Source of the DNA: an uncultured Bacilli bacterium
GTDB taxonomy: Bacteria; Bacillota_I; Bacilli_A; RF39; UBA660
Direction of reading: 5' to 3'
Assembly (NCBI GenBank): GCA_947595415.1
Contig: CANQER010000023.1
Coordinates: forward strand, 1 to 11,686
DNA: 11,686 nt
Part shown: piece by piece, positions 1 through 11,686 of the stretch
How positions within the stretch are numbered: the stretch's first letter is position 1
Layout: each line of letters starts with the position of its first letter
The notes under the pieces: generated by a model
What the model was told of the DNA's origin: nothing
Database searches by the model: none
Seen by the model: only the letters and a program-made list of their open reading frames with translations
Made by a program: the position numbers and the translations under genes

Positions 1-384
1 GTAGAACTAGCTAAAAAGGGTAGTATGATAATCTTTTCATCACATAGAATGGAACATGTTGAACTATTTTGTAAAAAACTAGTTGTTTTAGTAAAAGGAA
101 AATCAGTTTTAAGTGGTTACTTAAAAGATATAAAAGAAGATTATCGAAAAAAAAATATCTTTATTAAAAGTGATGTTCCAAAAGAAAAGATACTAGCTAT
201 AAAAGGTGTTTTAAAAGTAAATGAAAACATCGATGAATTAGAAGTAAAAATCGAAGATGACAGTGTAGTGGAAAAAGTATTTGCTTTAGTATCAAAATAT
301 AAAAACACAACTAAATTTGTTGTTGAACAACCATCATTAAATGAAATTTTTATAGCTAAAGTAGGTGAAAGTTATGAAAAGTAA
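1..384 (+). CDS. ABC transporter ATP-binding protein, NatA/CcmA type (C-terminal part only)
   Basis: The 5' end is cut off by the window; the frame is open from base 1 and 127 residues remain. The visible part opens just before the H-loop (switch histidine) of an ABC ATPase, in the context IIFSSHRMEHVE, the usual form in ABC-2 exporters of the NatA/YhaQ/Bcr type, where 'SSH-E-' closes the nucleotide-binding domain. The rest is the accessory C-terminal domain (DUF4162-like) seen in this family. Walker A, Q-loop, signature and Walker B lie outside the window. It overlaps the next gene by 11 bases and that gene is an ABC-2 permease, so the pair should form one exporter that hydrolyses ATP at the inner face of the membrane. 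The substrate cannot be told; relatives move sodium ions, peptides or drugs. The ATG at 25 is internal, not a start. Confidence 0.88.
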   Translation, partial: VELAKKGSMIIFSSHRMEHVELFCKKLVVLVKGKSVLSGYLKDIKEDYRKKNIFIKSDVPKEKILAIKGVLKVNENIDELEVKIEDDSVVEKVFALVSKYKNTTKFVVEQPSLNEIFIAKVGESYEK

Positions 385-1681
385 ACTAAATTATTTAACC
401 AGTGTTAGTTTAAAAAGAAAAATAAAAACTAAATGGTTTGTTTTAGCTAATATCCTTTTAGCTATTGGAATAATAGGGATTATAAATGTCGATCACATAA
501 TTAGTTTTTTTGGTGGTGATTTTAACGAAAAAGAACAAATATATGTAATTGATAACACCAATAAAGCTTATGATATATTTGAAAACCAAATAAAAACAAT
601 TCAAACTAGTCTTAATGATGAACAAGATTATGAAATTCACAAATACCAAAAAAACATCGAAGAAGCTAAAAAACTAGCTAAAGACGATGACAAAAATACG
701 ATTATTATCTTTAATGATGATGAAAAAGACGTTTTACAAGTTGAAATTATCTCTAATAGTTATATTGATACATTTGACTACCAGTTTTTATCTTCAGCCT
801 TAAACGCTACAAAAAGCACCTTAGCTTTAGAAAAAACCAATATCAGTAGTGAACAACTAGCAATGATTCAAAATCCTGTCTCAATAAAAAGAACAATCTT
901 AGATGAAAATAAAAAATCAGAAGATGAAAACATGGAAATGATAATGACTATGGTTTTCCCAGTAATAATTTTACCATTTTTCATGTTAACAATCTTTTTA
1001 GTCCAAATGATAGGTGCAGAAGTAAACGATGAAAAATCAACTAGAGGAATGGAAATAATAATATCAAATGTTTCCCCAAAAACTCATTTCTTTTCGAAAG
1101 TTTTAGCAGGTAACATATTCGTCTTACTTCAAGGTCTTTTATTACTTGTATTCTCAGGTATAGGATTATTCATTAGAAACCTATTTAAATCAAGCAAAAC
1201 CTCAGAACTAACAACCTATATAGGTGATATAATAAATCCAATTTTAAATAGTGATTTAGGAAGACAACTAATATATATCATTCCTCTTGCATTAATTTTA
1301 ATGATTTTAACCTTCCTAGCTTACTCTTTACTAGCAGGAATACTAGCTTCTATTACCACAAATACAGAAGATTTCCAACAACTTCAAACCCCAATTATGG
1401 TTATTTTATTAATAGGTTATTTCCTAGCTACCATGGCAGGTATGTTTGAAGGTTCAATTTTTATAAAAATAATATCTTATATTCCTTTGATATCAGCTAT
1501 ATTATCCCCATCCTTGTTAGTTTTAGGACAGATTGGAATATTTGATGTTATAATCTCAATTATATTCTTACTAGGACTTATTTACCTTTTAATAAAATAT
1601 GGTTTAAGAATATATAAAGTAGGTATTTTAAATTATACCTCAAAAGATTTATGGAAAAAAATGTTTAAAGCTTTAAAATAG
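374..1681 (+). CDS. ABC-2 type transporter permease, NatB family
   Basis: Integral membrane partner of the preceding ATPase, 435 residues. I chose ATG 374 over GTG 365 because AGGTG at 363-367 sits six bases before it. Layout: one membrane span at about 20-38, an extracytoplasmic region at about 40-188 rich in Lys, Asp and Glu, then roughly six spans (about 189-212, 244-267, 300-327, 340-357, 363-386, 389-409). Between spans two and three is NDEKSTRGMEIIISNVSP (218-235), the cytoplasmic coupling segment typical of NatB/ABC2_membrane_3 proteins. Length and topology fit full-size NatB proteins such as B. subtilis NatB and YhaP. The 11-base overlap with the ATPase implies translational coupling. 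The family includes sodium extrusion pumps, but the substrate here is not determined by sequence. A terminator follows directly. Confidence 0.87.
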   Translation: MKSKLNYLTSVSLKRKIKTKWFVLANILLAIGIIGIINVDHIISFFGGDFNEKEQIYVIDNTNKAYDIFENQIKTIQTSLNDEQDYEIHKYQKNIEEAKKLAKDDDKNTIIIFNDDEKDVLQVEIISNSYIDTFDYQFLSSALNATKSTLALEKTNISSEQLAMIQNPVSIKRTILDENKKSEDENMEMIMTMVFPVIILPFFMLTIFLVQMIGAEVNDEKSTRGMEIIISNVSPKTHFFSKVLAGNIFVLLQGLLLLVFSGIGLFIRNLFKSSKTSELTTYIGDIINPILNSDLGRQLIYIIPLALILMILTFLAYSLLAGILASITTNTEDFQQLQTPIMVILLIGYFLATMAGMFEGSIFIKIISYIPLISAILSPSLLVLGQIGIFDVIISIIFLLGLIYLLIKYGLRIYKVGILNYTSKDLWKKMFKALK

Positions 1682-1705
1682 AAAAGTCGTTTGACTTTTT
1701 TATTA
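1682..1705 (+). terminator. Rho-independent terminator after the NatAB-type operon
   Basis: Seven-base stem AAAAGTC (1682-1688) and GACTTTT (1693-1699) with a GTTT loop, running into a T-rich tail, immediately after the permease stop. The stem is AT-rich and modest. Its 3' arm also contributes the -35 box of the next promoter. Confidence 0.65.
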
Positions 1706-1720
1706 TACCTTTGATAAAAT
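1691..1720 (+). promoter_or_regulatory. Predicted sigma-A promoter of the two-component operon
   Basis: -35 TTGACT at 1691-1696 and -10 TAAAAT at 1715-1720 with 18 bases between them, and TGA just before the -10 giving an extended -10 element. The -10 ends 15 bases before the chosen ATG, so the leader is very short, with the GGGTG ribosome site at 1726-1730 inside it. Confidence 0.55.
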
Positions 1721-1735
1721 TAAATGGGTGATAAG

Positions 1736-2404
1736 ATGAATTTACTATTAATTGAAGATGACGAATCAATTAGATTAGGACTTAAATATTATTTAGAACA
1801 AGAAAACTTTCATATCCTAGAAGCTAGTAATATAAAAGAAGCTTTAAAACAAATTAGTAATAAAATAGATCTAGTCCTACTTGATATAAACTTACCTGAT
1901 GGTAATGGTTTTGATTTGTTTCAAACTATAAAACAAAAAAAAGATATTCCAATTATATTTCTAACAGCTAATGATATGGAAGTATCAATAGTAAAAGGAC
2001 TAGATATGGGAGCAGACGACTATATAACTAAACCATTTAAAGCTCGTGAACTTTATTCTAGAATAAAAACAGTTTTAAGAAGAAGTAATAAAAATATATC
2101 TAATGTTATAAAAATAAAAGATATTGTTATAGATATGACGCAAGCTAAAGTTTTTAAAAATGGGAATGATGTTTTCTTAACTGCTTTAGAATATAAAATT
2201 TTACTTATTCTCGCCACAAACCCTAATAAAGTTTTCACTAGAGAAAAAATACTATCTGATATTTGGGATGTTAATGAAGAATATGTAAATGATAATACAC
2301 TTACTGTTTATATCAAAAGAATAAGAGAAAAAATAGAAAATGATCCAACTAATCCTGAAATAATTATTACTGTAAGAGGACTTGGATATAAGGTAGAAAT
2401 ATGA
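1736..2404 (+). CDS. OmpR/PhoB-family response regulator
   Basis: DNA-binding response regulator of 222 residues, the partner of the kinase that follows. I chose ATG 1736 because GGGTG (1726-1730) is placed correctly for it and the protein then begins MNLLLIEDDE as OmpR-family receivers do; an upstream ATG at 1724 lacks a ribosome site. Receiver domain at about 1-115: acidic pair D8-D9, phosphoacceptor D50 in LLDINLPDG, switch T77 in FLTAND, and K99 in DDYITKPF, so all catalytic positions are present. The winged-helix domain occupies about 125-222, with the recognition region near DNTLTVYIKRIREKI and the closing RGLGYKVEI hairpin. The stop TGA overlaps the kinase start (ATGA at 2401-2404), so the two are translated together. 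Its likely target is the palindrome at 3613-3626 before the ABC genes, which would make it an activator of the transporter. Within the family I cannot tell a BceR-like from a VanR-like regulator with certainty. Confidence 0.93.
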   Translation: MNLLLIEDDESIRLGLKYYLEQENFHILEASNIKEALKQISNKIDLVLLDINLPDGNGFDLFQTIKQKKDIPIIFLTANDMEVSIVKGLDMGADDYITKPFKARELYSRIKTVLRRSNKNISNVIKIKDIVIDMTQAKVFKNGNDVFLTALEYKILLILATNPNKVFTREKILSDIWDVNEEYVNDNTLTVYIKRIREKIENDPTNPEIIITVRGLGYKVEI

Positions 2405-3615
2405 AAAATAACGAATTTTTAAAATTAATAGTTTATGAAGTTATATTTATTACCATTATAGTTTTATTAAATATTAGTTTTTTTTACTACAACTTCAATA
2501 ATTATAAAAAATATTTAAACTACAATAACTCATTAATAATTGGTAATATTTTAAAAAATCATCCATCCTTAGAAAGTGAAATTATCAAAAACATTCAAAC
2601 AAGTGATCTAAAAATAGGCCAAGAATTTTTAGAAAAATATAGCCTAGATGATATAGCTAATTTAGAATATTTGGATAATTTAAAAAAATTCAAAAAAGAT
2701 ATGTTTTTAAACAACGTAATATTTGCTTTAATATCAATTTTAATAGTTTTAATAGTAAATATATTATTTATCTTAAAAATATATAAAAAGATAAGAAATA
2801 TAGATATTTATTTAAACAAAGTTTTACAAGGAAATTATAATTTAGATATAATTGACTACAATGAAGGAGATATTAGTAATCTTAAAAACGATATCTATAA
2901 AATAACAGTAATGCTTAAAAAACAAGCAAATGATTTAAAAAAAGAAAAAAAGTATTTAGAAGATACCCTATCTGATATATCTCATCAAATAAAGACTCCT
3001 TTAACTAGTATGTATGTAATAAACGATCTATTAGTAGAAGATGTTTTGAACGAAACTCAAAAACAAGAAATGTTAGTAAAAAATAAAAACCAATTAGAAC
3101 GAATTGAATGGTTAGTAACATCTCTTTTAAACATGTCGATGATGGATAGTGGAACAATTAAATTCAAAAAAGAAAAAGTTAATGTTTTAAATTTAATAAA
3201 TGAAGCATTAGAACCTTTAAAAATACCAATTGAAATCAAAAACCTTGAATTAGAAGTTTTAAAAGATCCAAATATATTTATAACTGCTGACTATAAATGG
3301 ACTAAAGAAGCTTTAATAAATATTATCAAAAATGCTTATGAACATACAGATAAAGGAAAAATTACCATTAGTTTTACTGATAATCCAATTTATACTGAAA
3401 TAAGTATTAAAGATAGTGGTTGTGGTATTAGAAAAAAAGATTTACCTCATATTTTTGAAAGGTTTTATAAAACTAACAGTAAATCAAATAGTATTGGTAT
3501 AGGATTAAACTTAGCTTTAAAGATAATCCAAAAACAAAATGGCAATATTTTAGTTGAAAGTAAAATAAATAAAGGAACAACTTTTAAAATCCAAATATAC
3601 AAAAATATAATATGA
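2401..3615 (+). CDS. Sensor histidine kinase with a short extracytoplasmic sensor loop
   Basis: Membrane kinase of 404 residues. Spans at about 10-32 and 104-127 flank an extracytoplasmic loop of about 70 residues with many charged residues. A HAMP-like linker follows (about 128-180). The H-box is SDISHQIKTPLTS with the phosphorylated H195. The ATPase domain has the N-box NIIKNAYEH (N307, N311), G1 box DSGCG (338-342), F-box FERFYK (352-357) and G2 box GIGLN (366-370), so it looks fully active. The SHQIKTP form of the H-box is common in Firmicute kinases next to peptide-responsive ABC transporters. However, true BceS-type kinases lack a real extracellular loop and sense through the transporter; this loop is longer, so it may bind a ligand itself. 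It starts in an ATGA overlap with the regulator. Confidence 0.93.
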   Translation: MKNNEFLKLIVYEVIFITIIVLLNISFFYYNFNNYKKYLNYNNSLIIGNILKNHPSLESEIIKNIQTSDLKIGQEFLEKYSLDDIANLEYLDNLKKFKKDMFLNNVIFALISILIVLIVNILFILKIYKKIRNIDIYLNKVLQGNYNLDIIDYNEGDISNLKNDIYKITVMLKKQANDLKKEKKYLEDTLSDISHQIKTPLTSMYVINDLLVEDVLNETQKQEMLVKNKNQLERIEWLVTSLLNMSMMDSGTIKFKKEKVNVLNLINEALEPLKIPIEIKNLELEVLKDPNIFITADYKWTKEALINIIKNAYEHTDKGKITISFTDNPIYTEISIKDSGCGIRKKDLPHIFERFYKTNSKSNSIGIGLNLALKIIQKQNGNILVESKINKGTTFKIQIYKNII

Positions 3616-3626
3616 CAAAATTGTAA
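3613..3626 (+). promoter_or_regulatory. Candidate response-regulator operator, BceR-type palindrome
   Basis: The sequence TGACA-AAAT-TGTAA fits exactly the TNACA-N4-TGTAA motif that I recall being reported for regulators of BceRS-like systems. It begins at the kinase stop codon and its centre lies about 41 bases before the -10 box of the ABC promoter, a normal place for an activator. A pair of AGTCA direct repeats (3634-3638 and 3645-3649), 11 bases apart and so on the same helix face, lies between it and the -10 and could be an additional or alternative site, as OmpR-family proteins often bind such repeats. Confidence 0.5.
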
Positions 3627-3637
3627 TCTAAATAGTC

Positions 3638-3666
3638 ATAATAAAGTCACATATTCTAGATATAAT
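3638..3666 (+). promoter_or_regulatory. Predicted activator-dependent promoter of the ABC transporter genes
   Basis: Perfect -10 TATAAT at 3661-3666, but the bases 17 upstream (ATAATA, 3638-3643) are a poor -35, and the TGn extension is absent, unlike most other predicted promoters in this window. A weak -35 preceded by a palindromic operator is the usual design of a promoter that a response regulator switches on. The transporter genes could also receive read-through from the two-component genes, as no terminator separates them. Confidence 0.5.
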
Positions 3667-3687
3667 TAAAACAGGAAGGGAGATATT

Positions 3688-4371
3688 ATGGAAATATTGA
3701 AAGTTGAAAATTTAAGTAAACACTATGGTAATGAAGATACTAAAGTAATAGCTTTAGATAATGTTAGTTTTAGTGTTTCCAAAGGCGACTTTGTAGCGAT
3801 TGTAGGAGCTAGTGGAAGTGGAAAATCTACTCTTTTACATATTTTAGGAGGAGTTGATAGACCTACAAGTGGTAAAGTTTATGTAGATGGAGAAGATGTT
3901 TACAAATTAAACGAAACTAATTTAGCTATCTTTAGAAGAAGACAAGTAGGATTAATCTATCAATTTTATAATTTGATACCTGTTTTAAATGTCTTAGAAA
4001 ATATTACTTTACCTATTTTACTTGACAACAAAAAAGTTGATCATGAATATTTGAATGAGTTAGTTGAAACTTTAGGATTAGCCAATAGAGTTAATCATCT
4101 ACCAAATCAGTTATCTGGAGGACAACAACAAAGAGTATCAATTGGTAGAGCCCTTATGAATCGACCAGCTATTTTACTCGCAGATGAACCAACAGGTAAC
4201 CTTGATAGTAAAGCTAGTAAAGAAATAGTTGAACTTTTAAAAATATCTAATAAAAAATACCATCAAACTATTATTATGATTACCCATGATAATTCACTTG
4301 CATTAAATGCTAATCGTATTATTACTTTAGAAGATGGTAAAATTATAAGTGATGAGAAGATACGCAAATGA
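3688..4371 (+). CDS. ABC transporter ATP-binding protein, MacB/LolD/BceA type
   Basis: ATPase of 227 residues, complete, with AAGGGAG (3676-3682) five bases before the ATG. Walker A GASGSGKST (40-48), Q-loop Q92 in IYQFYNLIP, signature LSGGQQQR (142-149), Walker B ILLADEP (162-168) with catalytic E167, D-loop NLDSKAS (171-177), and switch H200 in MITHD. QFYNLIPVLNVLEN and the short length assign it to the ATPases that pair with FtsX-fold permeases (MacB, LolD, BceA), which act by mechanotransmission rather than ordinary passage through a pore. Its TGA stop overlaps the permease ATG (ATGA at 4368-4371). With the adjoining two-component system it suggests sensing of, or resistance to, cell-wall-active peptides; this role is inferred from context. 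Confidence 0.94.
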   Translation: MEILKVENLSKHYGNEDTKVIALDNVSFSVSKGDFVAIVGASGSGKSTLLHILGGVDRPTSGKVYVDGEDVYKLNETNLAIFRRRQVGLIYQFYNLIPVLNVLENITLPILLDNKKVDHEYLNELVETLGLANRVNHLPNQLSGGQQQRVSIGRALMNRPAILLADEPTGNLDSKASKEIVELLKISNKKYHQTIIMITHDNSLALNANRIITLEDGKIISDEKIRK

Positions 4372-6857
4372 ATATTTTAAATAAACTTACTATAAAACAT
4401 CTAACCATGAATAAAAAAAGAACGATAGTTACTATCATTGGGATAATTCTATCGACAGCTTTAATGGTTGGGATTGGACTTTTATTTTCATCAATGCGTG
4501 ATTACATGGTAAAAGAAGTTACACATATTAGTGGTAAACACCATGTAAATTTTGAAAATATTAGTAAAGAAAATTTAGATATTTTAAAAAATAATGTAAC
4601 AATCGAAGAACTATACTATCAAAGTGAAATGGGCTTTGGAAAGATTAAGGATAATACTTATTTTTATATAGGTAAAGCAGATTCTAAGTTTTTAGATAAT
4701 ATCAATATTACAAAGGGAAGAAAACCTAATAATTCTAAAGAAATTGTTATAAATAGTAACCTTGCTAGTATTCTTCATAAACAAGTAGGTGAAGAAGTAC
4801 AGTTAGAATATGGTCAAAGAAAATATAAAAATAAAATTCTTCATCTAAATGATGAATATCAAGATAATGAAACACTAATAAACCTTAAAAAAGTAAAATA
4901 CAAAATCGTAGGAATAAGTGAAAAATCATTTGATAATAATTACTATTTAGATATCAGTAATATTTATACTTATGATGATAATATATCTGACTTTAATAAG
5001 TTATATTTGATATATAAAGATACAAACAACATTTTAGAAAAAACAGAAAAAATAGCTAAAAATTTAAACATCGAAAAAGTAGATTATAACTATGATTTAT
5101 TAAGTTTATATGGTCAAAGTAAATATAATAATATAAATAGTAGTATTAGTAAAATCATAATTATCGTTTTAACTATTATTGCAGTTGGTTGTATTATTGT
5201 AATTTATAATTCCTTTGCTATATCTGTAATGGAGCGAAAAAAACAATTTGGGTTATTTTCAAGTATAGGCGCAACTAGAAAACAAATTAGAAAAACAGTT
5301 TTATTTGAAGCCTTTATTGTAGGATTTATAGGTATAACTTTAGGAATACTAAGTAGTATTTTAGGTATTTGGGTTGTACTTCAAGTAATAAACAGTCTAT
5401 TAAAAGAAATGTTTGAATTTAAACTATCATTAGTTATATATCCATTATTTATCATAATTCCTGTTATATTTATGATACTAGTTATTTTAATTTCTGCCTT
5501 TTTACCATCATTTCAAGCTAGTAGAATTTCACCTATAAATGCAATTAGACAAAATGATGATATCAAAGGTAAAAAAGTAAAAACTAGAAAATTTATCAAA
5601 AAACTATTTGGTTTTGAAGGAGAACTTGCATTAAAAAATATAAAACGAAGTAAGAAAAAATATCGTATTACAGTTTTATCTTTAATTGTAAGTATTGTCT
5701 TATTTATTTCATTTTCAACATTCTTAGACTATGGAACATCAAGTAGTGAAGAATTTATTGGTAGTATTGATTATGATCTATATGTTTATAACTATTCTGA
5801 AAATAGTAAAGTAAACGATATTTTTAGTAAAATCATCAAAAATAAAGAAGTAGAAGATTATTTTATTCAAAATGATTATTATAATTTTGTAAGTAAAAGT
5901 TTTGATAAGAATGATTTTATTTGTGAAAATAATTGTTATGATGAATTTATCACCTATGATGATTATATTGGTGTTAAATTAATTGCAGTAGATAAAAATA
6001 CTTATAATAAATTAATTACTAAATATAACTTAGAAAAAGGATCTAGTATTCTTATCAATAGATACAATAAAATTGATTATAAAAACAACAACAGAAAAAC
6101 TTATAGTAGTAAAATTTTATCCCAAGTAAAAGAAAACATCGAAGTTTGTGTAGATGTAGATAATAAGTGTAGTAAAATTAGTAATGTAAAAATCTTAAAT
6201 GATGTTCCAATGGGAGTAAAAGAATATACTTATGATGATTCTTTAAATATAATTGTTCCCTATAGTGATTTAAACTCTTTATTAGAACCTTTAGTAGAAC
6301 GTAGTTATTATGGAAAAAATCTTTATATCAAATCTTCCAATTATGATGAACTTGAAAAATACATCGATGAGGTTTTAAAAAGTAACAGTTCTGGTATGGA
6401 ATATGTTAATGTAGCTAAACAATTTAAACTTCAAAAAAACTTAATTTTAGTAATAAAAATACTTTTATATGGATTTATCAGTTTAGTTACCTTAATTGGA
6501 GTAACTAGTGTATTTAACACTATAAACACTAGTATAGCATTAAGAAGAAGAGAATTTGCGATGTTAAGAAGTGTAGGTATTACCCCATTATCATTTAATA
6601 AAATGTTACGTTTTGAAAGCTTATTTGTAGGACTAAAATCACTAGTTTATGCAATACCTCTATCGTTAGTAATAGTTATTTTATTCCATTTATCATTTGG
6701 GGAAATCGTTTCATTTGACAGTATTATTTTACCTATAAAAGCTATTTTACTTGCTATAATTGGTGTATTTATAATCGTATTTGTAACAATGAAATACTCA
6801 ACTAATAAAATAAAAAAAGAAAACATTTTAGATGCAATTCGTGAAGAAAACATTTAA
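4368..6857 (+). CDS. Large ABC permease with two FtsX domains
   Basis: Membrane partner of the ATPase just upstream, 829 residues. Predicted eight-span layout: span 1 (about 19-40), extracytoplasmic domain 1 (about 45-260), spans 2-4 (about 262-282, 312-342, 356-380), a cytoplasmic linker (about 385-433), span 5 (about 434-455), extracytoplasmic domain 2 (about 456-690), spans 6-8 (about 692-715, 750-775, 788-808). Each half carries the FtsX signature after its second span: MERKKQFGLFSSIGATRKQI near 288-307 and RRREFAMLRSVGITP near 726-740. This duplicated architecture differs from the BceB type, which has ten spans and one large loop, and resembles the 'putative ABC transport system permease' proteins common in Clostridia and Bacilli. 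The second outer domain holds two close cysteine pairs (C519/C523 and C594/C601). Likely function is antimicrobial-peptide defence or envelope maintenance; the substrate is unknown. Confidence 0.88.
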   Translation: MNILNKLTIKHLTMNKKRTIVTIIGIILSTALMVGIGLLFSSMRDYMVKEVTHISGKHHVNFENISKENLDILKNNVTIEELYYQSEMGFGKIKDNTYFYIGKADSKFLDNINITKGRKPNNSKEIVINSNLASILHKQVGEEVQLEYGQRKYKNKILHLNDEYQDNETLINLKKVKYKIVGISEKSFDNNYYLDISNIYTYDDNISDFNKLYLIYKDTNNILEKTEKIAKNLNIEKVDYNYDLLSLYGQSKYNNINSSISKIIIIVLTIIAVGCIIVIYNSFAISVMERKKQFGLFSSIGATRKQIRKTVLFEAFIVGFIGITLGILSSILGIWVVLQVINSLLKEMFEFKLSLVIYPLFIIIPVIFMILVILISAFLPSFQASRISPINAIRQNDDIKGKKVKTRKFIKKLFGFEGELALKNIKRSKKKYRITVLSLIVSIVLFISFSTFLDYGTSSSEEFIGSIDYDLYVYNYSENSKVNDIFSKIIKNKEVEDYFIQNDYYNFVSKSFDKNDFICENNCYDEFITYDDYIGVKLIAVDKNTYNKLITKYNLEKGSSILINRYNKIDYKNNNRKTYSSKILSQVKENIEVCVDVDNKCSKISNVKILNDVPMGVKEYTYDDSLNIIVPYSDLNSLLEPLVERSYYGKNLYIKSSNYDELEKYIDEVLKSNSSGMEYVNVAKQFKLQKNLILVIKILLYGFISLVTLIGVTSVFNTINTSIALRRREFAMLRSVGITPLSFNKMLRFESLFVGLKSLVYAIPLSLVIVILFHLSFGEIVSFDSIILPIKAILLAIIGVFIIVFVTMKYSTNKIKKENILDAIREENI

Positions 6858-6868
6858 AATGTTTTTTT
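6847..6868 (+). terminator. Terminator overlapping the permease stop codon
   Basis: Eight-base stem AAAACATT (6847-6854) and AATGTTTT (6858-6865) around a three-base loop, with a T-run to 6868. The stop TAA (6855-6857) forms the loop. The stem is AT-rich but the pattern is clear; it separates the ABC operon from cotE. Confidence 0.65.
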
Positions 6869-6870
6869 GT

Positions 6871-6899
6871 GCACTTTTAACTATTTTAAGCATAAATTA
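6871..6899 (+). promoter_or_regulatory. Candidate sporulation promoter (sigma-K or sigma-E type) before cotE
   Basis: CATAAATTA at 6891-6899 fits the sigma-K -10 pattern CATAnnnTA completely, and as CATAAATT it fits seven of eight positions of the sigma-E pattern CATACAnT. GCACT at 6871-6875 is a four-of-five match to the sigma-K -35 (GMACM), 15 bases away. No acceptable sigma-A pair lies in this interval. B. subtilis cotE is read by sigma-E and sigma-K, which agrees. CATA strings are frequent in DNA this rich in A and T, so this is suggestive only. Confidence 0.4.
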
Positions 6900-6918
6900 A
6901 AGTGAGGGGTGAATGTAT

Positions 6919-7452
6919 ATGGCATCATTTAAAGAGATTGTAACCAAAGCAATTATTGGTAAAGGCAAAAAATATTTTAAGAACAATTATACAATCAGTA
7001 CAACTGATAAACCCACAACAGTACTTGGATGTTGGGTTATAAATCACAAATTTAAAGGATATAAAACGGGCGATAAAATTGGAGTAGATGGATCATATGA
7101 TGTAAATATATGGTATTCATATGATAACGATAGTAAAACAACAGTTGTTAATCAAAAAATCGATTACAATGAATTATTTAATGTAAAAATTAAAGAAAAT
7201 GCTGATTTAACAGGTGATACTGATATAATTGTTAGGACTTTAAAACAACCATCATGTTCAGGAGTAAACATTGAAAATGATGGATCTATTTCCTTTGATA
7301 TCGAAAAAGAATTAGGAGTAGAAATAGTAGGGGAAACTAAAATGAAAATATCTATTGAAGATGACGAAGAACCATGGGATGAAATAGATGATGATGTAGA
7401 TGAAGAAGTTTTAAACGAAATTGATGAAAATGTTGATGAAAAATACATATAA
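6919..7452 (+). CDS. cotE: Outer spore coat morphogenetic protein CotE
   Basis: Protein of 177 residues, close to the 181 of B. subtilis CotE, which directs assembly of the outer coat around the forespore by binding SpoIVA and inner coat proteins and recruiting outer coat proteins. I start it at ATG 6919, seven bases after AGGGGTG (6905-6911); the ATG at 6913 is too close to that site. From memory of the B. subtilis sequence, shared motifs run in order: KEIVTKAIIGKG (5-16), TVLGCWVINHKF (34-45), the signature YDVNIWYSYDNDSKT (60-74), LKQPSC (108-113), EIVGETK (135-141), and an acidic Asp/Glu tail (147-174) with one Trp, as in CotE. It stands alone between two terminators. It implies sporulation capability or a recently lost one. 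A different role for the family is not known to me. Confidence 0.9.
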   Translation: MASFKEIVTKAIIGKGKKYFKNNYTISTTDKPTTVLGCWVINHKFKGYKTGDKIGVDGSYDVNIWYSYDNDSKTTVVNQKIDYNELFNVKIKENADLTGDTDIIVRTLKQPSCSGVNIENDGSISFDIEKELGVEIVGETKMKISIEDDEEPWDEIDDDVDEEVLNEIDENVDEKYI

Positions 7453-7454
7453 TT

Positions 7455-7492
7455 AAGTGTCAACCAAAAAACGTTGACACTTCGTTTTTTTT
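7455..7492 (+). terminator. Strong terminator after cotE
   Basis: Perfect ten-base inverted repeat AAGTGTCAAC (7455-7464) and GTTGACACTT (7473-7482) with an eight-base A-rich loop, then CG and a run of eight T (7485-7492). It begins just past the cotE stop. The 3' arm contains TTGACA, the -35 box of the rpsP promoter. Confidence 0.85.
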
Positions 7493-7502
7493 ATGTTAAA
7501 AT
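7474..7502 (+). promoter_or_regulatory. Strong sigma-A promoter of rpsP-khpA
   Basis: Consensus -35 TTGACA (7474-7479), 17-base spacer, extended -10 TGT-TAAAAT (7494-7502). The start codon is about 22 bases further on, so the leader is short. Near-consensus strength fits a ribosomal protein gene. Confidence 0.78.
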
Positions 7503-7524
7503 GTTATAGAAATGGAGGTATTAT

Positions 7525-7806
7525 ATGGCTGTTAAATTAAGATTAAAAAGAATGGGAGCTAAAAAAAGACCATTTTATCGTATTGTAGCTGCTGATAGTA
7601 GAAGTCCAAGAGATGGAAGATTTATAGAAAATATTGGAACATATAATCCTATAACAGAACCAGCTACTGTTAAAATAGATGAACAATTAGCATTAAAATG
7701 GCTTAAAGATGGAGCTATACCAACTGATACAGTAAGAGCTTTATTTAAACAAACTGGTATTTTAGCTAAATTTCATGAATACAAAAATTCAAAAGGAGAA
7801 AAATAA
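7525..7806 (+). CDS. rpsP: Ribosomal protein S16
   Basis: Protein of 93 residues, full length for S16 (bS16), a component of the 30S subunit that binds 16S rRNA and aids its assembly. The N-terminus [20 protein letters not shown] and the following [22 protein letters not shown] are diagnostic, as is the basic, lysine-rich tail. GGAGGT lies just upstream at normal spacing. The stop TAA overlaps the start of khpA (TAATG at 7804-7808), the same coupling found in many Firmicutes. Confidence 0.98.
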
Positions 7807-8048
7807 TGGATTTTGGTAAATTAACTGAAATGATTGTTAAAAACCTAGTTAAAGATCCTGATTCTATTTCTGTTAAACAAATAGAAGATGAAGAAGTTAT
7901 TACCATTTTAGTTTTAGTATCAGAAGATGATATCAAATCAGTTATTGGCAAAAATGGAAAAATAGCTAATGCTATTAGAACAATTGTCCAAGCTTCTAGT
8001 TACATTAACAATCATAAACAAATAAAAATAAATATTGATTCTTTTTAA
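7806..8048 (+). CDS. khpA: KH-domain RNA-binding protein KhpA (YlqC)
   Basis: Protein of 80 residues, typical length for KhpA. It is a single KH domain with the RNA-binding loop GKNG at 48-51 within IKSVIGKNGKIANAIRTIV, preceded by the acidic beta strands usual in YlqC proteins. KhpA works in the cytoplasm as a homodimer or with KhpB/Jag and in streptococci affects cell elongation and division through RNA binding. It is translationally coupled to rpsP. In most relatives rimM and trmD follow; here a terminator comes at once and those genes are absent from the window. Confidence 0.95.
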   Translation: MDFGKLTEMIVKNLVKDPDSISVKQIEDEEVITILVLVSEDDIKSVIGKNGKIANAIRTIVQASSYINNHKQIKINIDSF

Positions 8049-8067
8049 ACACTTAGGTGTTTTTTTT
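8047..8067 (+). terminator. Terminator after rpsP-khpA
   Basis: Six-base stem AAACAC (8047-8052) and GTGTTT (8057-8062) with loop TTAG, followed by a continuous T-run to 8067. It overlaps the khpA stop codon. Confidence 0.7.
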
Positions 8068-8068
8068 A

Positions 8069-8097
8069 TGGATATTTTAAATATATAGTGATATAAT
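8069..8097 (+). promoter_or_regulatory. Predicted promoter of the PstS-like gene pair
   Basis: Extended -10 TGA-TATAAT (8089-8097), with perfect TATAAT at 8092-8097. The -35 position 17 bases before it reads TGGATA (four of six). The leader is short, about 23 bases to the ATG at 8121. I see no PhoB/PhoP-type repeat (TTAACA-like direct repeats) that would point to phosphate control. Confidence 0.55.
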
Positions 8098-8120
8098 TAT
8101 TAAAGAATAGGGGTGTATTT

Positions 8121-9014
8121 ATGAAAAAGAAGATATTTACTTTTATTTTTGTGCTGTTTTTTATGGCTATAGTAGTAGGAGGATGTTTTATCTATTACGA
8201 ATATTCTAAAGGTAATATTCCAACCAAACAAATTTTTACTAAAGAAGAATTTCCTAAAATCGATGCTTCACTAGCTACTCAACCACTAGTAGATGCTATC
8301 TATGAAGATTTTACTAAAAGTAGTAGTAATGATTTAAACTATACTAATACTCATCCTGCTTATGTAAATCTAGTAGATGGTAAAGTAGATGTTATTATCG
8401 TAACTGAACCTAGTAAAGAAGAATTAGAATATGCTAAAGAGAAAAATGTTGAACTTGAAGTTATACCTATTGTAAATGAAGCTTTTGTATTCTTTGTCAA
8501 TAAAAAAAATAAAATTGATAATTTAACAATCGAACAAATCAGAAATATTTATTCTGGAGAATACACTAATTTTAATCAAGTAGGGGGCGAAAACAGTAAA
8601 ATTTTAGCTTATCAAAGACCTGAAAATTCAGGAAGTCAAACAGGAATGCTATCTTTAGTTATGAAAGACGTTAAAATGAAAAAACCAGTTACTGAAGAGT
8701 ATATAGCTTCAATGGCAGGAATTATCGATATAGTAGCTTCTTTTAATAATGAAAAACAAGGAATTGGTTACTCGTATTATTATTATGCTAATACCATGTA
8801 TAACAATGAAAATATTAAATTTTTAGGTATTAATGGAGTAAAACCAACCTATAAAACGATCCAAGATAAAACTTATCCAATTATAACTAATTATTATGCT
8901 GTATTTAATAAAAATGAAGCAAGTGATAGTAATGTAAGAAAATTAGTAAAACAAATTTTAAGTAAAAGGGGAAGTAAAGTTGCTAAAAAAGCTGGGTACG
9001 TTACTATCAAATAA
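8121..9014 (+). CDS. PstS-like periplasmic-binding-fold protein, membrane anchored
   Basis: Protein of 297 residues, ribosome site AGGGGTG five bases before the ATG. The N-terminus has three lysines and a hydrophobic stretch (about 5-25); VGGC at 19-22 could be a lipobox, but hydrophobic residues continue after the cysteine, so it may instead be a plain membrane anchor. The body matches the PstS/PBP-like family: DASLATQPL at 48-56 corresponds to the 'DGSTA..P' anion-binding loop, LTIEQIRNIYSGEYTNFNQVGG (135-156) is a family hallmark, and R166 with SGSQTG (170-175) resembles the second anion-binding loop R-x-n-SGT. Phosphate or another oxyanion is a possible ligand. No pstC, pstA, pstB or phoU is near, so it is an orphan that may act in sensing or scavenging. 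The next gene overlaps it by 35 bases and is probably its functional partner. Confidence 0.82.
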   Translation: MKKKIFTFIFVLFFMAIVVGGCFIYYEYSKGNIPTKQIFTKEEFPKIDASLATQPLVDAIYEDFTKSSSNDLNYTNTHPAYVNLVDGKVDVIIVTEPSKEELEYAKEKNVELEVIPIVNEAFVFFVNKKNKIDNLTIEQIRNIYSGEYTNFNQVGGENSKILAYQRPENSGSQTGMLSLVMKDVKMKKPVTEEYIASMAGIIDIVASFNNEKQGIGYSYYYYANTMYNNENIKFLGINGVKPTYKTIQDKTYPIITNYYAVFNKNEASDSNVRKLVKQILSKRGSKVAKKAGYVTIK

Positions 9015-10518
9015 TAAAAAAATAGTTATATTTTTACTAATTTTTACATTACTTTGTATAAGTTTTACTGCTTTTATTATAAATAAACCAACAAAAACTA
9101 TTAAAGATAATATTACTCCTTTAAACAAGTATTCTACTTACAATGAAAATGATCTAGAAATAATTGAAAAAAAAGTAGGAAATGAAGAAGATTATATGTC
9201 TTACTTTCAAATATCAGGATTAAAAGATAAAAATATCGAAGATAAAATCAATAAAAATATATCTGATACTTTTCAAAAACTTAGTTTTTCAGAACAACGA
9301 GGTTGTATAAATCTTTCTAATTTTAATAATGTTTTATCATATAACTGTTATTACTACGATGAAAAAACTGATACCAATAAAGATTTATATTTTAATATTG
9401 ATCTTAATACTGGAGAAGATATCAAATTTGATGATTTGTTTGTAAAAAATGTCAATTTCAAAGATTTTATTCCTAAAATAATTTATAATGGTTTGTTTGT
9501 ATCTAAAACATTAGATAATATGTATGGATATATTGATAAAGATCTTGATTATTCAGAAATAGAAGATAAAACAATTGAATATTTATATTTATTTAATAAG
9601 AAAAAATTTGATTTTTCAGTTAATGATATAGGTATTGATATTATAATAAAAGATGATATTTTTGAAATAAAATACATTGATAATTTAGATAAAATTGCTG
9701 TATTTGATCGCTATAAAAGCAAAGAAAGTTTATTTGAAAAAGATAATATTGGATTTAAAGATATCTATATTGGAACTTATTACTCCCATGATAGTAGTTG
9801 TGATAGACTAGGTTATATATCTGATAATTACTATACTCAAATATATAGTAGTGTAGATAGTAAAGACGAAACTAATATTTTAAATACAATAATTAAACAC
9901 GATTTAGATCTTAATAAACCTGATAGTTTAGACGCAACTGTTTATGCTGCTGATTATTCACTGATAAAAGTTAGTTCTAATTTATATAATTTGTATGTTT
10001 TAGGATCTTCTTTTAAAATGAAAAAAGATTATTTTAAAAATACATTTTTAGATGTTTTACTATCTAACTTACGTGAAATGAAACCTTTTATTTGGTTTGC
10101 TGATTACGATACTGATCAATTAGATAAGAAAAACGTTAGTTATCAAAGTATTAATAAAGATATCTATATCGATAAGTATGGTCAAATATATAAAACTAAA
10201 AATGCTAATTTAAGTGATTACTTTGATGAAGAATATGATTATAAACAAGTAATTATTGATTTAATCAGTAAAGAAAACGATTGGTTTTTCAATGAAGGTA
10301 GTGCAGAATACTACTTAGATAAATACAAAATAGATAAACAACAACTACTAGAAACTTTATATAATTATCTATCGTTTAACGTTGATTTTGATGATTACGA
10401 TAAACAAATAATTAACGTTAAAAATAAATGTGATAAAGATTACTGTGATGTTATGAATATTCCAGAAGTAATTAATTTTGATATATTTGATAAAGAAAAA
10501 GTTAGAATTTACAAATAA
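8980..10518 (+). CDS. Membrane-anchored extracytoplasmic protein with RsiV/PdaC-like (DUF4163/DUF3298) region
   Basis: Protein of 512 residues beginning with TTG; AAGGGG (8966-8971) sits eight bases before it inside the PstS-like gene, and no later ATG precedes the membrane span, so the TTG start is well supported. A short basic cytoplasmic head leads to one span (about 14-34), with everything after it outside the cell. Residues about 75-98 (YFQISGLKDKNIEDKINKNI) resemble the start of DUF4163, and LYFNIDLNTGEDIKFDDLF (136-154) plus FDFSVNDIGIDII (210-222) resemble DUF3298, the lysozyme-binding fold of anti-sigma factor RsiV and of PdaC. The remaining 260 or so residues match nothing I know; they are rich in Tyr and Asp and contain C274, C484 and C489 (C109 and C123 lie earlier). 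No enzymatic motif is seen. Coupling to a PstS-like protein suggests a surface complex. Function unknown. Confidence 0.8.
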   Translation: MLKKLGTLLSNNKKIVIFLLIFTLLCISFTAFIINKPTKTIKDNITPLNKYSTYNENDLEIIEKKVGNEEDYMSYFQISGLKDKNIEDKINKNISDTFQKLSFSEQRGCINLSNFNNVLSYNCYYYDEKTDTNKDLYFNIDLNTGEDIKFDDLFVKNVNFKDFIPKIIYNGLFVSKTLDNMYGYIDKDLDYSEIEDKTIEYLYLFNKKKFDFSVNDIGIDIIIKDDIFEIKYIDNLDKIAVFDRYKSKESLFEKDNIGFKDIYIGTYYSHDSSCDRLGYISDNYYTQIYSSVDSKDETNILNTIIKHDLDLNKPDSLDATVYAADYSLIKVSSNLYNLYVLGSSFKMKKDYFKNTFLDVLLSNLREMKPFIWFADYDTDQLDKKNVSYQSINKDIYIDKYGQIYKTKNANLSDYFDEEYDYKQVIIDLISKENDWFFNEGSAEYYLDKYKIDKQQLLETLYNYLSFNVDFDDYDKQIINVKNKCDKDYCDVMNIPEVINFDIFDKEKVRIYK

Positions 10519-10539
10519 AAAAGGACGCTAAGTCCTTTT
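10519..10539 (-). terminator. Shared terminator between convergent genes (best for lexA)
   Basis: Eight-base inverted repeat AAAAGGAC (10519-10526) and GTCCTTTT (10532-10539) with a five-base loop. Read on the minus strand the hairpin is followed by six T and then T-rich sequence, a good terminator for lexA; read on the plus strand only four T follow, so termination of the upstream gene is weaker. The repeat overlaps the lexA stop codon. Confidence 0.75.
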
Positions 10540-11155
10540 AAAATTGCCTATATAAACCTATTGCTCTACCTAGTATAGTAACTTTCTTCATTATGAAAGG
10601 TTGCATTGTATCATTTTCAGGTTGTAATCTAAAATAACCATCTTCTTTGTAAAAAGTTTTTAAAGTAACTTCATTTTCTTCTGTCATAGCTACTACAACT
10701 TGGCCATTTCTTGCTGTATTACATCTTTCAACAATTACAATATCGTTATCAAAAATCCCTTTGTTTATCATACTTTCACCACTTACTTTTAAAGCAAATA
10801 CTTCTTTATTTTTAGGAATTAAATAAGTTGGTAAATTAAATAATTCATCAGGATTTTCAATTGCTTCAATAGGGTTACCAGCAGTTATTTTACCAAGTAG
10901 GGGAATTTTTACTAAATCATCATTTTTAAAATCAAATTCATTATCAACAAGTAGTTCGATAGCTCTATTTTTAGTTTCTTCCTTTTTAATATATCCTTTA
11001 TCTTCAAGATTTTTTAAATGAGCATGAATGGTTGCTGGTGAAGATATACCCAAACCTTTACCAATTTCTCTTACAGTAGGTGGGTATCCATTTGACACAA
11101 CAAAAGTTTTAATAAATTTTAAAACATCATCCTGGCGTCTAGTTAACTTATCCAT
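10538..11155 (-). CDS. lexA: LexA, SOS-response repressor
   Basis: Protein of 205 residues, the same length as B. subtilis LexA (DinR). It represses DNA-damage genes until RecA filaments trigger its self-cleavage. The N-terminal winged helix (about 1-65) contains YPPTVREIGKGLGISSPATI (24-43), with the recognition helix near 39-50. The cleavage site is A92-G93 in ITAGNP; the catalytic serine is S128 in SGESM and the lysine K166 in VTLKTF, so it should be cleavable. AGGAGGA (minus strand, 11167-11161) lies five bases before the ATG. It is transcribed away from the small SOS gene, and both promoters carry candidate LexA boxes, so it should repress itself. The 3' end meets the neighbouring gene at a shared terminator. 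Confidence 0.98.
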   Translation of the reverse strand: MDKLTRRQDDVLKFIKTFVVSNGYPPTVREIGKGLGISSPATIHAHLKNLEDKGYIKKEETKNRAIELLVDNEFDFKNDDLVKIPLLGKITAGNPIEAIENPDELFNLPTYLIPKNKEVFALKVSGESMINKGIFDNDIVIVERCNTARNGQVVVAMTEENEVTLKTFYKEDGYFRLQPENDTMQPFIMKKVTILGRAIGLYRQF

Positions 11156-11183
11156 ATCGATCCTCCTTTTACATTACATGTAC

Positions 11184-11212
11184 ATTATAACATATGTTTT
11201 ACAAAAAGTCAA
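11184..11212 (-). promoter_or_regulatory. lexA promoter
   Basis: On the minus strand, -35 TTGACT (11212-11207), 17-base spacer, and perfect extended -10 TGT-TATAAT (11192-11184). Two candidate LexA boxes overlap it, one on the -35 and one across the spacer and -10, as expected for autorepression. Confidence 0.8.
11187..11200. promoter_or_regulatory. Candidate LexA box 1 (lexA -10 region)
   Basis: ATAACATATGTTTT holds the complete core AACRNRYGTT of the Bacillus SOS box (CGAACRNRYGTTYC as I recall it); mismatches are only at the outer edges. Its core AACATATGTT is a perfect palindrome. It overlaps the lexA -10 and spacer. Confidence 0.55.
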
Positions 11213-11223
11213 ACAAATGTTTT
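11210..11223. promoter_or_regulatory. Candidate LexA box 2 (lexA -35 region)
   Basis: CAAACAAATGTTTT matches 12 of 14 positions of the Bacillus SOS box with a complete AACRNRYGTT core. It covers part of the lexA -35 and lies 23 bases from box 1, about two helical turns. Confidence 0.5.
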
Positions 11224-11232
11224 GAAAATGTA

Positions 11233-11261
11233 TTGACACGAACAGATGTATGTGCTATTAT
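11233..11261 (+). promoter_or_regulatory. LexA-controlled promoter of the small membrane protein
   Basis: Consensus -35 TTGACA (11233-11238), 17-base spacer, extended -10 TGC-TATTAT (11253-11261). The spacer contains LexA box 3. A near-consensus promoter with a repressor site between its two boxes should be silent until LexA is cleaved, then strongly active. Confidence 0.8.
11239..11252. promoter_or_regulatory. LexA box 3, inside the promoter of the small SOS gene
   Basis: CGAACAGATGTATG matches 12 of 14 positions of CGAACRNRYGTTYC, including the full left half-site CGAAC. It lies directly between the -35 and -10 boxes. Confidence 0.7.
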
Positions 11262-11286
11262 TGTTATAGCAAATGGAGGTAATAGT

Positions 11287-11430
11287 ATGAAAGAAATGTT
11301 AGAAAGTAAAGGAATTTTAAGTTTTGTTTTGATATTTTTATGTTTTATATTTATAAGCTCTACTACTGATATTAGATTAAACGAACCAAATAATATCGAA
11401 GACGATGAAGTTATTTTAAACTTGAATTAA
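11287..11430 (+). CDS. Very small single-span membrane protein, probable SOS cell-division inhibitor (SosA/YneA type)
   Basis: Protein of 47 residues. ATG 11287 is fixed by GGAGGT (11275-11280) six bases upstream and by the promoter ending at 11261. It has a ten-residue cytoplasmic head, one membrane span (about 11-24, LSFVLIFLCFIFIS), and an acidic outer tail of about 22 residues ending in VILNLN. It is divergent from lexA, has a LexA box in its promoter, and is followed by tkt. S. aureus has lexA-sosA-tkt and B. subtilis lexA-yneA-yneB-ynzC-tkt, where SosA and YneA are SOS-induced single-span proteins that stall septation. Sequence similarity cannot be judged by eye at this length; the case rests on position, control and topology. 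It is shorter than SosA (77) and YneA (about 103) and lacks a LysM domain. Confidence 0.75.
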   Translation: MKEMLESKGILSFVLIFLCFIFISSTTDIRLNEPNNIEDDEVILNLN

Positions 11431-11438
11431 TTTTATAG

Positions 11439-11467
11439 TATATTTTAAGGGTGTTCCATGTTATAAT
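11439..11467 (+). promoter_or_regulatory. Predicted promoter of tkt
   Basis: Perfect extended -10 TGT-TATAAT (11459-11467); the -35 position (TATATT, 11439-11444) is poor, so the TG extension may compensate. No terminator is visible after the small SOS gene, so tkt may also receive SOS-induced read-through. Confidence 0.5.
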
Positions 11468-11493
11468 ATTAATATAATAAAAAGGGTGATAAT

Positions 11494-11686
11494 ATGGATG
11501 AAAAAGTAATTAGTAGTATAAAAAGTCTTGGGATAGATATGATTGATAATGCTAGAAGTGGCCATCCTGGGATTGTTCTTAGTGCTGCTCCTATAATATA
11601 TACTTTATATGCTTACCACATGAATTTAAGTATTAATGACCCTAATTGGATAAATCGTGATCGCTTTGTTTTATCTGCAGGACATG
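11494..11686 (+). CDS. tkt: Transketolase (N-terminal part only)
   Basis: Only the first 64 codons are inside the window; the gene runs off the 3' edge. AAAGGGTGAT (11481-11490) lies just before the ATG. Transketolase moves two-carbon ketol units between sugar phosphates in the non-oxidative pentose phosphate pathway, using thiamine diphosphate and a divalent metal. The visible part holds RSGHPG (21-26) with the active-site H24, and RDRFVLSAGH (55-64) with H64, both family hallmarks. The SGHPG and SAGH spacing is normal, so the protein is probably full length. Some bacteria split transketolase into two subunits of about 270 and 310 residues, and the window ends too early to exclude that. Its position after lexA and the small SOS gene matches B. 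subtilis and S. aureus. Confidence 0.95.
   Translation, partial: MDEKVISSIKSLGIDMIDNARSGHPGIVLSAAPIIYTLYAYHMNLSINDPNWINRDRFVLSAGH

Follow-up and report, generated by a model that had tools for sequence, protein, structure and literature searches.

The window analysed here is the whole 11,686-nucleotide stretch of contig CANQER010000023.1 (positions 1 to 11,686, forward strand) from an uncultured Bacilli bacterium of the GTDB lineage RF39; UBA660. Its genome assembly (GCA_947595415.1; 935 kb, 68% complete) is the sole member of its genus among the genomes searched. Near the end of the window, the gap between the divergently oriented lexA and tkt genes is occupied by a small ORF (Table 1). The region of interest as first delimited, 11233-11430, comprises the promoter together with the ORF, the coding part being only 11287-11430. 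Both neighbours were confirmed by Pfam, and the strong ribosome-binding site ascribed to the ORF in the initial annotation is indeed present as a GGAGG sequence 7 nt before the ATG. A longer, 78-aa reading from the ATG at position 11194 was rejected as incompatible with the promoter at 11233-11261, since its start lies upstream of the -35 hexamer and it therefore could not be produced from this promoter.

Table 1. Coordinates of the features in and around the lexA-tkt gap of the window
Feature	Position	Strand	Remarks
lexA, SOS repressor, 205 aa	10538-11155	-	Pfam LexA_DNA_bind E 2e-24, Peptidase_S24 E 2.5e-31
lexA promoter TTGACT-17-TATAAT, 11/12	11184-11212	-	sigma-70-type match
LexA-type box ATAACATATGTTTT, 11/14, on lexA -10	11187-11200	.	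scored against CGAACRNRYGTTYG
LexA-type box CAAACAAATGTTTT, 12/14, on lexA -35	11210-11223	.	scored against CGAACRNRYGTTYG
Small-ORF promoter TTGACA-17-TATTAT, TG before second hexamer, 11/12	11233-11261	+	sigma-70-type match
LexA-type box CGAACAGATGTATG, 13/14, between -35 and -10 of small-ORF promoter	11239-11252	.	scored against CGAACRNRYGTTYG
Shine-Dalgarno GGAGG	11275-11279	+	7 nt 5' of small-ORF ATG
Small ORF, 47-aa predicted single-span membrane protein	11287-11430	+	47 codons + TAA
Predicted transmembrane span, residues 9-27	11311-11367	+	hydropathy; AlphaFold2 helix 8-31
Predicted outer tail, residues 28-47, net charge -5	11368-11427	+	low-confidence part of AlphaFold2 model
tkt, transketolase N-terminus, truncated at window end	11494-11685	+	Pfam Transketolase_N E 1.6e-19

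Two other parts of the window deserve mention in their own right. The outer spore coat protein CotE (6913-7452; Pfam E 9.8e-51) is encoded in this small genome, and an ORF reading by eye as rpsP follows it directly. A 512-aa ORF (8980-10518), which has a membrane segment at its N-terminus and no Pfam match, overlaps the end of the gene for a phosphate-binding-type protein, PBP_like_2 (8121-9014).

The near-consensus promoter of the small ORF (11/12) holds a LexA-type box (13/14) between its -35 and -10 hexamers, in agreement with the initial annotation; boxes were scored against the LexA box consensus CGAACRNRYGTTYG. The whole stretch contains 7 promoter-like sites compared with 5.0 in shuffled sequences, and only the lexA and small-ORF promoters exceed 9/12. 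In the window's genome, the first, exact box pattern had no match. Allowing up to two mismatches to CGAACAAATGTTCG gave three sites, some of them directly 5' of ORFs reading by eye as RecA and RecG; the control pattern, CGAACAAATGTTCG read backward, gave 13 matches in the same genome, and the count of sites is therefore in itself meaningless.

LexA is matched in 265 of the 291 genomes of the window's family (E 0.001). For comparison of the upstream regions we took, besides the window itself, the 29 best LexA loci from the rest of this family and the 80 best of a contig collection (family not given; LexA 62-74% identical), in all 110 loci that represent the closest LexA genes and not a random draw. 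Two of them (L066 and L082), with only about 200 nt upstream, were left out of the counts, and 108 with at least 300 nt remained. A divergent single-span ORF of 35-55 aa is present at 93 of these 108 loci, 91 detected by an automatic test and two added to them, L083 (35 aa) and L062 (displaced to 332 nt); the possibility raised at the outset, that relatives would have no conserved ORF at this place, was thus not borne out. The ORFs have a median length of 47 aa (range 35-55 in the 92 that were aligned). When these upstream stretches were shuffled 50 times (first-order Markov), an average of 1.5 of the 108 loci passed the automatic test, and never more than 4; on the reverse strand, 2 of 108 passed. 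The other 15 loci lack the ORF at the lexA-adjacent place; in one of these genomes (G073, locus L024) a copy with its own box lies on a different contig (L131). Species may be repeated between the two collections of loci, one pair of ORFs being identical (L020 and L031).

The window's own protein is rather isolated within this sample. Its nearest LexA is 77% identical, the identity of the small ORF to those of the eight nearest loci listed is 11-38%, and no near relative of the protein was found among the loci sampled. A protein collection yielded 78 matches in addition to the window's own protein, all of them without a Pfam domain and none named beyond 'hypothetical protein'. An ORF of this size had been expected to escape gene callers easily, which these 78 matches show not always to be the case. 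Taken at the level of comparative sequence analysis, the small ORF is a genuine conserved gene.

The LexA box and the ORF occur together. A box of at least 12/14 at 66-330 nt from lexA was found at 89 of the 93 ORF-bearing loci versus 1 of the 15 ORF-less ones, and the narrower interval of 66-160 nt holds such a box at 88 of 92 ORF-bearing loci. At 91 of 92 loci the box shares bases with the promoter element TTGA[CT]. On a quick LexA tree, the co-variation of the second box with the ORF could be followed in 8 supported independent pairs; the box goes with the ORF in 7.6 of the 8 on average and never against it (sign test, median p 0.008, range 0.008-0.031). LexA control of the small ORF is thus supported by the promoter sequence and by the co-variation of box and ORF.

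The family-wide search gave matches in 221 of 291 genomes (E 0.01), a total to which spans within long proteins contribute, so that it does not count genes. We picked 20 further places from it for a check of the box, and a box of at least 11/14 was detected within 150 nt at 14 of them. Seven boxed copies (L124, L125, L126, L128, L131, L132, L133) lie away from the lexA promoter region, either at a distance of at least about 1.1 kb from lexA or on a separate contig. At one further place (L134) the box precedes the upstream partner gene of the same operon, and the remaining 5 of the 20 places, all in phage-like regions, have no box. In L134 (positions 570-928, G179) a boxed lexA-divergent promoter drives two overlapping genes, the first for a 73-aa protein and the second for the small span protein. 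Separately, in L111 (1182-1472) a LexA-type box lies about 30 nt before a 96-aa ORF that by eye resembles the start of BRO-N/DinD proteins and has no Pfam match.

Selection on the protein was estimated from 36 non-overlapping pairs picked by LexA identity (at least 80%), an earlier set picked by ORF identity having been set aside as biased. The rate pN is lower than pS in 35 of the 36 pairs, the exception being L018/L026 (0.41 versus 0.39), and the pooled values are 0.231 and 0.493, respectively; equal frequencies of synonymous and non-synonymous changes, which the initial annotation had named as evidence against a gene, were therefore not observed. At the same time the ORF evolves fast, as pairs with 95% identical LexA can have ORFs only 62% identical. 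We conclude from these comparisons that selection acts on the small protein, which appears constrained yet fast-evolving. Shortness and fast evolution are also what one would expect of a chance ORF, or of a leader peptide in the lexA-tkt gap without protein function. However, the shuffle control, the excess of pS over pN, the moved copies with boxes of their own and the relatives found on viral contigs (see below) all contradict this reading, which is already refuted by the conservation data and to which we assign next to no probability.

A single hydrophobic stretch, residues 9-27, is predicted in the window protein, consistent with the one membrane span first proposed. In an AlphaFold2 model built with a 75-sequence alignment (mean pLDDT 74.4, pTM 0.40; mean pLDDT 94 in residues 11-20), residues 2-6 and 8-31 are helical and the tail is modelled with low confidence. 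The charge bias across the predicted span favours an N-inside orientation in 67 of 91 members (L083 left out), is equal in 13 and reversed in 11, and the span core is free of charged residues in 73 of 91. The outer tail had been described as short and acidic; the predicted tail of the window protein does carry a net charge of -5, but the family median is -1, and strong acidity is not a family feature. Conservation is seen in the tail itself (pooled pN 0.311, pS 0.521), and subfamilies share membrane-proximal motifs directly after the span, such as NARFKYLN in one and TKKYDE in another. No Pfam domain was detected in the window protein at E up to 1. LysM is absent among the 25 families listed as Pfam matches of the 75-member alignment, and the weak matches of this alignment, the best of which (E 0.0019) is to an unrelated baculovirus family, were taken as chance.

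TisB of Escherichia coli is a tiny LexA-controlled single-span peptide with an antisense RNA. DinQ of the same species is likewise tiny, single-span, LexA-controlled and accompanied by an antisense RNA, and it is toxic, according to excerpts of its published description (PMC3567139). A protein acting in their manner would enter the membrane, reduce the proton motive force and hold back growth, without being directed at the divisome. The size, the single predicted span and the LexA control of the small protein agree with this possibility, and the NCBIfam TisB model is touched by 1 of 75 members (E 0.059). On the other hand, an Rfam search of the window at gathering thresholds, which covers described families only, gave 0 RNA matches, in contrast to the antisense RNAs of both peptides; the outer tail of the small protein is under selection, with membrane-proximal motifs such as NARFKYLN shared within subfamilies; and most spans (73/91) have an uncharged core. 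We therefore regard a TisB- or DinQ-like activity as improbable.

The closest parallels by position and control are the SOS inhibitors of cell division of Staphylococcus and Bacillus; the yneA gene of the latter is linked to lexA. SosA of staphylococci, as described in excerpts of the original report, is a 77-aa LexA-controlled protein encoded divergently from lexA that has a span and an outer tail and lacks a LysM domain; removal of 30 residues, which leaves 47 and so matches the window protein in length, inactivates it, and outer residues D44 and H45 are essential (PMC6851548). The place next to lexA, compared in the initial annotation with that of sosA in S. aureus, agrees with this account (PMC6851548). 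The small protein shares with SosA the lexA-divergent slot, LexA control (judged here from sequence and co-variation), one predicted span, a predicted outer tail and the lack of LysM, but differs in length (47 versus 77 aa) and has no significant similarity to the SosA model. The window protein matched 0 NCBIfam families, including the SosA model NF041581 (cut-off 60 bits). With the threshold relaxed to E 1, this model has hits in 4 of 75 relatives (best E 0.034), more than any other; since unrelated NCBIfam models reach E 0.003 among the same 75 relatives, and a rescan of 10 members with an E limit of 5 gave no SosA match, these hits are at chance level. The SosA family model found 0 matches in 195 genomes of the phylum at E 1e-4, where no control matched either.

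YneA of B. subtilis is SOS-controlled and contacts TM7 of FtsW through its one N-terminal span, and its outer LysM domain blocks synthesis of the septal wall; without LysM, the span alone does not block division, and so a bare span need not work (excerpts of PMC13396833). The small protein has in common with YneA, by prediction, the SOS control and a single N-terminal span, whereas the required LysM domain is absent and the tail has 20 residues. AlphaFold 3 models, of low confidence, place SosA on TM7 of FtsW, and also ChiZ and SidA on FtsW (PMC13396833). SidA of Caulobacter crescentus, a 29-aa SOS membrane division inhibitor acting on FtsW in the part of the literature consulted (PMC4211646), resembles the small protein as a tiny SOS membrane protein (predicted in our case) and differs in its length and distant lineage, the two being compared by description only. 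Because of these 29 residues, the suggestion that the window protein is about the smallest known member of this group was rejected (PMC4211646), though it is shorter than SosA.

Outside the window's family the small protein could not be traced. In a search of 296 genomes of the class (E 1e-3), 40 matched, of which 27 belong to the window's own family. Among the other 13, 11 match only in frames of at least 109 aa and one match is by eye broken by a stop; a 44-aa match outside the family, in G580, has by eye no lexA-like ORF in the 4 kb around it. We thus found no credible relative outside the family in these 296 genomes. At the order level, every genome listed belongs to the window's family, with a further 52 beyond those listed. 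LexA itself was detected outside the family in 13 genomes of two families (E 1e-30). Three of these 13 loci (L190, L192 and L193), all from one family (f11), encode a 57-aa span protein divergent from lexA, with two LexA boxes; in L190 and L193 it was read from an internal ATG. An 80-84 aa gene, by eye YnzC-like, comes after it at all three loci. The profile of the 57-aa protein does not match that of our family (hhalign probability 2%), and it was rejected as a relative, being a different protein in the same slot. As an unrelated-looking protein fills the same place, the lexA-divergent slot seems to have been refilled repeatedly.

Within the family, five LexA-box-free copies (L174, L175, L176, L177 and L178) occur in four genomes. 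The copy in L174 (47-1724, G241) belongs to an operon with a Cro-type HTH gene and faces a 229-aa repressor with HTH_3 and Peptidase_S24 domains, which by its domains reads as S24, CI-like. A neighbouring gene encodes a DnaD-like helicase loader in L177 (E 9.5e-23), a primosomal-type protein in L175 (E 2e-7) and, in L176, a DUF6291 protein whose PHROG matches are only weak. The one scanned neighbour in L178 has no match, and this region was called phage-like because its copy is similar to that of L174 (78% identity) and to that of L183. Relatives were also identified on the IMG/VR contigs L179, L180, L181 and L183; where they match the queries, identity is 53-85%. L180 is almost a duplicate of L181, and the downstream genes in L181 encode Erf-like annealing, exonuclease, SSB and DnaD-like proteins; L183 has a Sak4-like/exonuclease protein and L179 a DNA methyltransferase. 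In up to 400 nt upstream of 8 of these 9 copies (L180 having no upstream DNA) the best box scores 9-10/14, as in random sequence. A further viral match, L182, was rejected as a frame inside a longer unrelated ORF. Additional scans of viral sequences and tblastn searches of named phages found no relative. We infer that phages may use the small protein to hold host division.

The SosA-type slot and control, and the presence of the FtsW family and an S41 peptidase in the genome, lead us to read the small protein as a SosA-like brake on division. The window's genome encodes FtsW/RodA/SpoVE relatives and an S41 peptidase, the latter being found in 88 of the 98 family genomes searched. A peptidoglycan wall, which a target such as FtsW needs, is predicted in most RF39 species in the sections of PMC10868615 consulted. 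In the mechanism we propose, LexA would keep the small gene off until RecA-driven self-cleavage of LexA turns it on. The protein would sit in the membrane N-inside and C-outside, docking by its span on the divisome, most likely on FtsW. The membrane-proximal outer part of the tail of about 20 residues would then stop FtsW/PBP2B without LysM, a mode of action also proposed for SosA. Once repair is done, the protein would be removed by a CtpA-like protease of the S41 type. The relatives in phage early regions would act likewise on the host, under phage control. Both the inhibition of division and FtsW as its target are put forward here by analogy, and the motif after the span (NARFKYLN, TKKYDE) is where we would look first for inhibitory residues.

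Many tiny membrane proteins are modulators of other membrane proteins. Such a role, in which an SOS-induced accessory protein binds a protease, transporter or sensor in the membrane and tunes repair or envelope stress instead of division, would suit the small protein insofar as its sequence alone does not name a partner. However, the lexA-divergent slot is that of a known division inhibitor in Staphylococcus and in Bacillus, and copies in phage early regions suit a blocker of the host cycle, so that an accessory function seems unlikely to us. The ORF is by sequence a conserved LexA-boxed gene, and we consider it probable that its predicted single-span protein blocks septal wall synthesis after DNA damage.

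In our reading, these proteins form a family of minimal SOS inhibitors of division that spans the lineage, occupies the SosA/YneA slot and lacks LysM. Titles and the beginnings of abstracts in the literature on small SOS division inhibitors and on RF39/UBA660 contain no description of it. The broadest interpretation, for which we see the chances as evenly balanced, is an undescribed, lineage-wide SOS checkpoint family of 35-55 residues in which it takes no more than one span and some 20 residues of tail to arrest division, and which has been captured into phage early operons, so that the same brake would be controlled by LexA in cells and, in viruses, by the repressor of the phage itself (S24-type in one case). 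SOS division inhibitors have so far come to light in single species, without apparent relationship to one another, whereas a family that can be aligned and is present at 93 of 108 lexA loci of a large lineage allows a search for the important residues. Its tail is too short to hold a known peptidoglycan-binding domain, and the family makes it testable what least membrane peptide is needed to stop septal synthesis of the FtsW type. The relatives from phage early regions would be a further example of a host checkpoint put to use by viruses.
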